Shown in pieces: positions 2,315 to 30,488 of a stretch of DNA of 37,415 bases; position 1 is the first letter of the stretch; each line of letters begins with the position of its first letter. This DNA is from Bacteroidota bacterium (GTDB lineage Bacteria; Bacteroidota; Bacteroidia; Palsa-965). The stretch lies in NCBI GenBank assembly GCA_006218065.1, contig VBWE01000034.1, forward strand, positions 31,502-68,916, read 5' to 3'. The notes beneath the pieces are model-generated. The model was not told where the DNA came from. It saw nothing but the letters and a program-made list of their open reading frames with translations, and did no database searches. The translations under genes and the position numbers were made by a program.

Positions 2315-2404
2315 AATTTCAAATGCAAAATGATAAAGGCCAAATATAAAAGTGTAAATCGTCCAACTTTGACATTCTACATTTGTCATTTGAAATTTTG
2401 ACTT
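2315..2404. repeat. Heptad hairpin A: inverted repeat of tandem 7-mers
   Basis: The gap between two convergent genes is filled by consecutive 7-nt units. On the left arm, units starting at 2315, 2322, 2329, 2336, 2343, 2350 and 2357 all begin AAT or AAG (AATTTCA, AATGCAA, AATGATA and so on). On the right arm, units starting at 2363, 2370, 2377, 2384, 2391 and 2398 all end ATT or CTT. The arms are inverted copies in the same register, with an exact 11-bp pairing at 2315-2325 / 2387-2397. The site could terminate both flanking genes, but there is no GC-rich stem with a clean U-run. Confidence 0.85.
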
Positions 2405-5075: not shown

Positions 5076-5149
5076 ACTGTTTAAAATTCCTCAGCGTCAT
5101 TAATCCACTAAAGTCCGCCATGCTTTCGGAATGTAACCCGGACTATTTT

Positions 5150-5224
5150 CGATTTACGATTGCCGATTTGCGATTTACACGCTGCAAATCGCAAATCAAA
5201 AATCGGCAGTCGCCAATCGGGAAT
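5150..5224. repeat. Heptad hairpin B: inverted repeat of tandem 7-mers inside the ccm operon
   Basis: The left arm has four heptads, CGATTTA at 5150, CGATTGC at 5157, CGATTTG at 5164 and CGATTTA at 5171. A short loop (5178-5182) follows. The right arm has six heptads starting at 5183, 5190, 5197, 5204, 5211 and 5218, five of them ending AAT (TGCAAAT, CGCAAAT, CAAAAAT, CGCCAAT, CGGGAAT) and one AGT. The arms are complementary in register. The element fills most of the 203-bp ccmE-ccmF gap; the rest shows no gene or clear promoter. Confidence 0.85.
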
Positions 5225-8971: not shown

Positions 8972-9475
8972 ATGGAGAAGAATTTCAAACAGCTGATGCG
9001 GGAAATCAAAGCGCTTGTTTTTGACATCGACGGCGTGCTGACCGACGGCTCGCTCATGCTGTTTGAGAACGGCGAACTGGGCCGCAGCTTCAATACCAAG
9101 GATACCTACGCGATCCGCCGGGCTTCGGATGCAGGACTGATTACGGCCGTGATCAGCTACGCCAGTACGGACAATCTCCGCGGCCGGCTGCAATCCGTAG
9201 GCATGAAAGAAGTGTACCTGCATTGCACGGACAAAAAAGAAAAGCTCGGTGAATTTTGCCTCGCTTACGATCTCGATCCGTCCACGGTACTTTTCATGGG
9301 CGACGATCTGCCCGACCTGCAGGCCATGCTCAGCTGCGGATTACCTGTTTGCCCGGCCGACGCCGCGCATGAAATTAAAGCGATTTGCCCGTATGTTTCA
9401 CCTTATCCCGGCGGCCGGGCCTGCGTGCGCGATGTGATTGAGCAGGTGCTGCGTGTGCAGGGAAAGTGGGAATAG
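8972..9475 (+). CDS. KdsC-like HAD phosphatase (3-deoxy-octulosonate-8-phosphate phosphatase family)
   Basis: The 167-residue protein is a cap-less HAD hydrolase of the KdsC type. Motif I is D18-I-D20-G-V-L-T-D-G, with nucleophile D18 and acid D20. The lysine motif is CTDKKEKL (84-91) and the acidic motif IV is MGDDLPD (108-114). In true KdsC the strand-2 motif usually reads I-T/S-G-R/K; here it is ISYAS (60-64), so the substrate may not be Kdo-8-phosphate. The ATG at 8972 is chosen because the open frame upstream lies inside the DUF2520 gene. It is the last gene before heptad hairpin C. Confidence 0.8.
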   Translation: MEKNFKQLMREIKALVFDIDGVLTDGSLMLFENGELGRSFNTKDTYAIRRASDAGLITAVISYASTDNLRGRLQSVGMKEVYLHCTDKKEKLGEFCLAYDLDPSTVLFMGDDLPDLQAMLSCGLPVCPADAAHEIKAICPYVSPYPGGRACVRDVIEQVLRVQGKWE

Positions 9476-9485
9476 CAAAAAAAGT

Positions 9486-9553
9486 GCGAATTGCGAATGC
9501 CAAATACCGAATGAATTGATCATTCGCCCTTCGGAATTCGCAATTCGGCATTT
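9486..9553. repeat. Heptad hairpin C: inverted repeat of tandem 7-mers
   Basis: The left-arm heptads are GCGAATT (9486), GCGAATG (9493), CCAAATA (9500) and CCGAATG (9507). A 7-nt loop AATTGAT (9514-9520) is itself one period long. The right-arm heptads are CATTCGC (9521), CCTTCGG (9528), AATTCGC (9535), AATTCGG (9542) and the partial CATTT (9549). The element begins 10 bp after the KdsC-like stop codon and lies upstream of the UbiA promoter. The remainder of the 171-bp gap has no other feature apart from that promoter. Confidence 0.85.
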
Positions 9554-13069: not shown

Positions 13070-13260
13070 GACTCACCCCCTGGCCCCCTCTCTCCATCTT
13101 CGATAGATGTGCTGAAAAAGGAGATTTGTTTGCATCGAAGATGCAAAGAGGGGGAACCAAAACGTAAGTTCAGGTTCCCCCTCTTTGCGCCTTTGGCGCA
13201 ACATTACTTTTGATTTACACTGACCTCCAAAGGCGGAGAGAGGGGGCCAGGGGGTGAGTC
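13070..13260. repeat. Nested GC-rich inverted-repeat element, two tandem hairpin modules in a 26-bp outer repeat
   Basis: The outer arms 13070-13095 and 13235-13260 are a perfect 26-bp inverted repeat. Inside are two modules. Module 1 pairs CCCCCTCT plus a 9-10-bp inner arm (13095-13104) with its complement at 13134-13143 and AGAGGGGG. Module 2 pairs CCCCCTCT plus CGCCTTTGG (13189-13197) with CCAAAGGCG (13227-13235) and AGAGGGGG. A 16-bp perfect inverted repeat (13143-13158 / 13173-13188) joins the modules back to back. Small hairpins with GAA and TTT loops sit at 13129-13147 and 13185-13201. The element fills most of the 267-bp gap between yceI and pirin. Confidence 0.85.
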
Positions 13261-30329: not shown

Positions 30330-30368
30330 TTTTTTCTGAGTACTGCTTTACAGCGACGTATTTGGACC

Positions 30369-30473
30369 AGATTTGAGATGTGAGACTTGAGATTTGAGAC
30401 TCCAGCACTGGACTGGCTACTTGTCAGGTATTATCAGTACAATCTCATATCTCAAGTCTCACATCTCATATCT
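30369..30473. repeat. Heptad hairpin D: inverted repeat of tandem 7-mers
   Basis: The left-arm heptads are AGATTTG (30369), AGATGTG (30376), AGACTTG (30383), AGATTTG (30390) and AGACTCC (30397). A 37-nt loop (30404-30440) follows. The right-arm heptads are CATATCT (30446), CAAGTCT (30453), CACATCT (30460) and CATATCT (30467), plus a partial unit at 30441. Four to five heptads pair in register, two of them perfectly (AGATGTG/CACATCT and AGACTTG/CAAGTCT). The element fills the 159-bp gap between the SpsF stop and the aminotransferase start; nothing else is seen there. Confidence 0.9.
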
Positions 30474-30488
30474 GAAAAAGTTACTTTG

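Follow-up and report, generated by a model that had tools for sequence, protein, structure and literature searches.

The four heptad-built hairpins of the window, i.e., the whole stretch of 37,415 nucleotides analyzed here (contig C57:31502-68916 of a 5.26-Mb draft genome in 81 contigs), are members of several dispersed families of one design. This design combines a period of 7 nt, multi-copy families, an intergenic position near stop codons, a fixed orientation of the core, and arms that change in concert. We read the hairpins as REP-like extragenic palindromes, in several families, whose arms are degenerate tandem heptamers and which would result from slippage, template switching from arm to arm, and dispersal. 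We give this reading as a whole a probability of about one half. The pattern is real and widespread, and it is under-described in the open-licence full texts that formed the scope of our literature search. It lies where REP-like palindromes meet bacterial heptamer repeats.

The period of seven in the window and the host genome

An earlier note on this DNA, made from the sequence alone, had described inverted repeats built of heptads in four gaps between genes, and our analysis confirms them (Table 1). Lag 7 is the best lag at each site, with a mean arm identity of 0.67 for hairpin A, 0.71 for B, 0.69 for C, and 0.78 for D, against 0.28-0.46 for the second-best lag (lags 4-12). None of 2000 dinucleotide shuffles matched the lag-7 value at any of the four sites. 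Relative to shuffles, hairpins B, C, and D are exceptional as folds (z of -6.2, -4.6, and -9.1), whereas A is not and is the weakest of the four (z of -1.0). The 13 units that had been attributed to hairpin A include a poorly periodic loop. All four hairpins lie within gaps between called genes. Hairpin A is found between convergent genes that end at 2300 and 2424, B and C are in co-directional gaps of the + strand, and D is in a co-directional gap of the - strand. The gene upstream of hairpin C is hydrolase-like, and the right arm of D lies 14 nt past the end (30489) of a leftward-transcribed cytidylyltransferase-like gene. The search of the window against Rfam gave 0 matches above the gathering score. 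The window also has, at 13070-13260, a GC-rich compound inverted repeat (GACTCACCCCCTGGCCCCCTCTCTCC followed by its complement) with inner hairpins, and copies resembling it occur at G000 C19:149782 and C41:139993.

Table 1. Arms of the four heptad hairpins, in window positions.
Feature	Positions	Strand	Description
Hairpin A, 5' arm	2315..2344	+	AAATGNN-type heptads (AATTTCAAATGCAAAATGATAAAGGCCAAA)
Hairpin A, 3' arm	2368..2397	-	77% complementary; weakest fold of the four
Hairpin B, 5' arm	5145..5179	+	CGATTNN heptads; CcmE (end 5075) upstream, CcmF (start 5279) downstream
Hairpin B, 3' arm	5183..5217	-	74% complementary in that register; alternative register 5193-5224
Hairpin C, 5' arm	9487..9514	+	CGAATNN heptads; gene end at 9475, 11 nt away
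Hairpin C, 3' arm	9520..9547	-	82% complementary
Hairpin D, left arm	30368..30399	+	TGAGANN heptads, units TT-TG-CT-TT; arms 94% complementary
Hairpin D, right arm	30443..30474	-	units TA-TG-CT-TA

The same period dominates the stretches of the host genome that we scanned for hairpins and heptads, 1.18 Mb in total. They contain 66 heptad-built inverted repeats, as compared with at most 8 at any other lag, and by extrapolation the genome would have around 290. When the arms of 131 inverted repeats were scanned at lags 4-12, lag 7 was the best lag in 73, and an identity of at least 0.7 was reached by 41 at lag 7, 3 at lag 8, and none at lags 6 and 9. A separate scan of 150 kb of host intergenic DNA for degenerate arrays (lags 4-13), irrespective of hairpins, found 24 at lag 7. 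None of the other lags had more than one, and shuffled sequence had none. The comparison with lags 6, 8, and 9 that had been proposed as a check thus came out clearly in favor of lag 7 (41 vs 0, 3, and 0 for inverted repeats, 24 vs 0-1 for intergenic arrays). The typical unit is a core of 4-5 nt with 2-3 variable positions, and the lag-7 identity is typically 0.65-0.8.

The host genome has at least six core families: TGAGANN, CGATTNN, CGAATNN, CGTTTNN/AGTTTNN, AAATGNN, and GCAAANN. In the 1.18 Mb, these account for 143 runs of at least three units (TGAGA 23, [CG]GATT 36, CGAA[TC] 27, [CA]GTTT 16, AAA[TA]G 22, GCAAA 19). Longer words are common to the arms of different loci (e.g., CGATTTTGGATTGGCGATT; AATTTCAAATGNAAAATG), and hairpin A has family members elsewhere, such as AATTTCAAATGTAAAATGTCAAAG at C41:49320. 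A conserved order of the TGAGANN units is no more than suggested, with 23 top transitions vs 18.4 in shuffles (maximum 24). As each hairpin of the window belongs to a multi-copy family, the four sites provide no argument against dispersed copies. The opposite had been claimed, and this is contradicted by the tens of runs that the family of every site has elsewhere, by the shared words, and by the homologous loops of several clusters (see below). The accompanying claim, that the 7-nt period is constant while the sequence is not conserved, agrees with the six or more cores of the host and with the other cores found in other Bacteroidia.

Chance or an assembly artefact in draft intergenic DNA could be invoked, given a genome in 81 contigs. 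This explanation is already refuted by the 0 of 2000 shuffles at each site, by the lack of arrays in shuffled intergenic DNA, by the recurrence of the pattern in independent genomes, and by the 95 genome-wide matches of three consecutive TGAGANN units (TGAGANNTGAGANNTGAGA), for which the reversed-pattern control gives 0.

Placement relative to genes

Almost all heptad hairpins are intergenic (65 of 66). Among gaps of at least 100 bp, the share that bears a hairpin is 17% for convergent, 13-16% for co-directional, and 8% for divergent gaps, although the latter nonetheless contain 9 heptad hairpins. Within co-directional gaps, the hairpins tend towards the upstream stop, at a relative position of 0.275 on average (KS p 2e-7). 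Once the hairpin is subtracted, the median length of these gaps is 65 nt, vs 62 nt over all co-directional gaps. Since the residual gap has about the ordinary length, the element resembles an insertion. The hairpins look like insertions of around 110 nt just 3' of stop codons, with the seating typical of REPs. In our favored reading, the elements would have been dispersed as copies and would persist where they are least harmful, i.e., in 3' flanks and away from promoters. There, they may serve as ordinary 3'-end RNA hairpins.

The comparison of orthologous gaps proposed in the earlier note was made with family members at 55-61% CcmF identity; the relatives searched included no second species of the genus. 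In these family members, the gap that separates CcmE from CcmF, where hairpin B is located, is short and has no heptad hairpin where it could be delimited. For about half of them, a simple ORF rule gave no clear upstream gene. In a more distant Bacteroidia genome (L125), the CcmE-CcmF gap has a direct heptad run of other words, GGAATTG/GGATTCG, right after the stop codon and upstream of 10001.

The placement could also reflect selection on RNA structure, with the hairpins acting as 3'-end terminators or exonuclease barriers, compensatory mutations keeping the pairing, and the heptads being a by-product. The proximity to stop codons, the rarity in divergent gaps, and the folds of B, C, and D, far better than those of shuffles, are all consistent with it. 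Yet, the same placement is equally expected from insertions that are tolerated away from promoters, 9 hairpins do lie in divergent gaps, and the period of 7 is left unexplained. The mismatches of the sense strand go in the direction expected for RNA, with 25 G.U vs 13 A.C, but this excess is weak (p about 0.07, a rough estimate) and most mismatches are of neither type. Finally, a U-tract is lacking, as at least 6 T in 12 nt were found at only 15 of 69 flanks. Intrinsic terminators, in which a U-tract comes directly behind a GC-rich hairpin, were rejected on this ground. Overall, we consider selection on RNA structure a possible explanation of the hairpins, if an improbable one.

Concerted arms, nesting, and polarity

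Part of the hairpin counts came from a search that required complementary arms, a requirement from which only the pairing test of opposite-strand runs is free. In this test, heptad runs of the same family were paired whenever they lay on opposite strands and at most 250 nt apart, and complementarity was not a criterion. The arm score within loci was 36.4, vs 33.5±0.71 for permuted same-family loci (0 of 1000 permutations). Homologous loops were found in five clusters with a total of 22 elements, and for most other elements none was found. In a cluster of six elements the loops are 80-92% identical (e.g., ...GACGACATCCCTGTAATACCAAAAC), whereas the arms are either CAGTTTG-type or CGTTTAC-type, always of the same type on both sides. 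In a cluster of seven, an octad inner hairpin is enclosed by GATTNNC arms (six elements) or GAATGCC arms (one element). Homologous loops surrounded by different yet mutually matching arms, together with the permutation test, support the conclusion that the arms of one locus evolve in concert. The earlier note had named arm-to-arm copying as one possibility.

The occurrence of different arm types around homologous loops or inner hairpins also means that heptad hairpins are nested and modular. Some arms of the GCAAA type enclose a palindrome that is also found 3' of a RAYT-like gene, or a CGTC-bearing palindrome. An octad-like periodic family (GCGTCTTTGCGCCTTCGCGG / CCGCTAAGACGCGAAGGCGCTAAC) forms inner hairpins within the loops of heptad hairpins (G000 C19:221177, C41:70266, C57:22087, C12:280593, and others).

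The hairpins have a fixed polarity: core(+) precedes core(-) in all 50 opposite-strand pairs. Over eleven sequence sets, G exceeds C in the 5' arm of 70 heptad hairpins and is exceeded by it in 13. To allow for the dependence among members of one family, we also counted genome-by-family clusters, of which 13 of 15 have the G-richer 5' arm (p 0.007) and 2 show the opposite. Where G-C pairs outnumber C-G pairs in stems, Monttinen and Loytynoja see the cause in intrastrand template switching (PMC8794818), so the G-richer 5' arm is a hint of this process. The same authors also expect U-A to exceed A-U (PMC8794818). The sense strand shows the opposite, with 361 A-U and 315 U-A, which counts against template switching.

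These observations can be accommodated by the mechanism that we favor, whose steps we infer from published processes. Replication slippage, with a preferred step of 7 nt, would create the heptad runs and lengthen or shorten them, an idea that PMC4679880 credits to Mrazek et al. (2007). Template switching between the arms (quasipalindrome correction) would then be the main upkeep of their likeness: it copies one arm onto the other, and both arms could thereby gain or lose a unit together. Several points limit this account. Slippage alone is silent on why a core of 4-5 nt is fixed while the other positions vary, which argues against it as the full explanation. The loops reach around 190 nt, which is long for intrastrand switching and speaks against it. 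Most loops lack a homologue, and the copying of whole elements is thus shown only for some clusters. A local generating process had been suggested for the four sites. Its arm-to-arm part is supported, heptad slippage would be a plausible addition, and the multi-copy families are at odds with unique local products. A bolder version can be conceived, in which the Bacteroidia share a mutational or enzymatic process that creates and alters intergenic DNA by steps of 7 nt and copies a run onto its inverted partner, with the G-richer arm first. We regard it as speculative and rather unlikely. If true, the words of the heptad hairpins would differ from lineage to lineage, but their spacing, polarity, and position would not.

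Known repeats and other Bacteroidia

The closest precedents are the (GGGANTN)n repeats of Xanthomonas and the REPs. The former are degenerate heptads, around 90% intergenic, located near the upstream stop and few in divergent gaps (Rehm et al. 2015, PMC4692102), with 70-75 cases per genome of two convergent runs that make an inverted repeat (PMC4692102). The host hairpins share with them the degenerate heptads, the conserved core, the intergenic and near-stop position, and the inverted pairs. However, Xanthomonas has one family, capable of forming G-quadruplexes, whereas the host has at least six, mostly non-G-rich, and here the arms are matched unit by unit and further palindromes are nested in the loops. 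REPs lie next to 3' ends, prefer unidirectional and convergent gaps, and come in several families per genome (PMC3733652). The hairpins, too, are short, dispersed palindromes with many extragenic copies (66 in 1.18 Mb, 65 of them intergenic), in several families, at 3' ends, and preferentially in convergent and unidirectional gaps. Unlike the GTAG- or CGTC-tagged REPs and REPINs, the heptad arms are periodic and have many sequences, and we noticed no tag and found no dedicated transposase. Inspection by eye of the ends of the 66 elements brought no common GTAG or CGTC to notice, while other host hairpins include a CGTC-bearing family.

This comparison raises the question of whether the hairpins are non-autonomous elements of the REPIN or MITE kind, moved by a RAYT or another single-strand transposase that would recognize the heptad arms as ends. 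Some families have partly common outer ends (CAGATNTGAG; AATTTCAAATG), and the clustered homologous loops, the insertion-like gap lengths, and the fixed polarity would fit. The genome also has two Y1_Tnp genes, but both matches are weak (27-28 bits) and neither gene is flanked by a heptad hairpin, i.e., neither is a linked RAYT between copies of the same repeat. Furthermore, we noticed no GTAG tag when inspecting the heptad hairpins, and the RAYT-like gene has beside it a REP with another palindrome (GCTAGTCGACGACT, L251), present inside some heptad-hairpin loops. We therefore find transposase-driven movement of the hairpins quite unlikely. RAYT was rejected as their carrier, since the palindrome that comes after the RAYT-like gene is not of the heptad kind, and no dedicated enzyme for heptad hairpins was found. 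In L251 (~1500-2200), both the palindrome GCTAGTCGACGACT and tandem units of ~28 nt (AACGAAGACCCTTTTCCACGGACTCGTGT) come after the RAYT-like (Y1_Tnp) gene.

The STRR heptamers of heterocystous cyanobacteria are tandem 7-nt repeats in intergenic DNA. Unlike the host hairpins, they are direct and have few fixed sequences. Direct TAACTGA heptamers occur in Beggiatoaceae, Cyanobacteria, and five Bacteroidetes, alongside "other heptamer direct repeats" (PMC4679880), and in most genomes no class of long SSRs is more common than the heptanucleotides (Mrazek et al. 2007, as reported in PMC4679880). The 7-nt unit, the intergenic location, and the presence in Bacteroidota are common to these repeats and to ours, and so is the excess of 7-nt tandem units over other lengths. 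Yet, TAACTGA repeats are perfect or near-perfect direct copies, in Beggiatoaceae mostly upstream of starts, and do not form hairpins, whereas the host units share a core and differ elsewhere. The BrickBuilt MITE of Porphyromonas gingivalis is intergenic and has tandem repeats and inverted ends, with a unit of 23 nt (PMC4596501). It resembles the hairpins as an intergenic element of Bacteroidota that joins tandem repeats with inverted ends, but its units are not heptads and its inverted ends are short. The earlier note, made without searches, named no described Bacteroidota system, but heptamers had been reported from five Bacteroidetes (PMC4679880), and inverted degenerate pairs from Xanthomonas (PMC4692102). 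In their behavior, the hairpins resemble a further variety of dispersed palindromes and heptamer repeats that are already known, rather than an entirely new kind of system.

The 7-nt period is class-wide in Bacteroidia. We searched 396 of their genomes for the core CGAWT and found it at spacing 7 in 114, at spacing 8 in 43, and at spacing 6 in 62. Genomes with at least 10 matches number 24, 1, and 0, respectively (counted by eye). In G000, there are 149 matches at spacing 7, 0 at spacing 8, and 1 at spacing 6. The reversed core TWAGC, nominally a control, has at least 10 matches at spacing 7 in 14 genomes, which shows that the spacing recurs with unrelated words. In samples selected for heptads, lag-7 arrays number 21 in G366, 8 in G306, 8 in G388, and 5 each in G012, G009, and G016, with 0-2 at other lags. 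In 1.3 Mb of CcmF flanks from other Bacteroidia, taken without heptad selection, there are 26 arrays at lag 7, 15 at lag 8, and at most 4 elsewhere. Heptad hairpins with matching arms are found in G306 (44-nt identical arms), G366 (86-nt arms), G012, G009, and G016. The 21 arrays of G366 lie within 80 kb (C1:160001-240000, L265-L268), and its 86-nt inverted arms switch from GATGACN to GATGTTG at the same place in both arms.

The cores of other Bacteroidia (AGAGAGC, GATGACN, GTTCAAN, GTTTCGN) bear on the possibility that the heptads are binding arrays, each core being the site of one protein and the spacing being kept for cooperative binding. Binding of a cold-shock-domain protein to heptamer repeats, with one molecule on each heptamer, has been reported (PMC4679880), and constant spacing, a conserved core, and variable linker positions are what such arrays would have. 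However, one genome has many unrelated cores, other genomes have others, and the mutual complementarity of the arms is unneeded for single-strand binding, which makes this explanation very unlikely.

Heptamers have been noted since 2007 as the commonest long repeat unit of bacteria, with no generally agreed reason, according to the work cited in PMC4679880 and PMC4692102. Here, the period is seen apart from any single sequence, with many cores in many genomes at constant spacing. As the arms stay matched while the words change, pairs of strains from heptad-rich species could separate slippage, template switching, and compensatory selection. In the genus g12 (G125, G174, G020, G097), chosen in search of orthologous heptad loci, the comparison of flanks between species gave a single weak match of 71% (L204/L221) and otherwise no orthologous heptad gaps that could be used. 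The heptad runs of this genus (L201-L230) are mostly direct, and the period can thus occur without a hairpin. Single gaps of g12 have consecutive runs of different words: GGACGAG heptads, CGATTNN heptads, CTCTGCGT octads, and AACCTT heptads.
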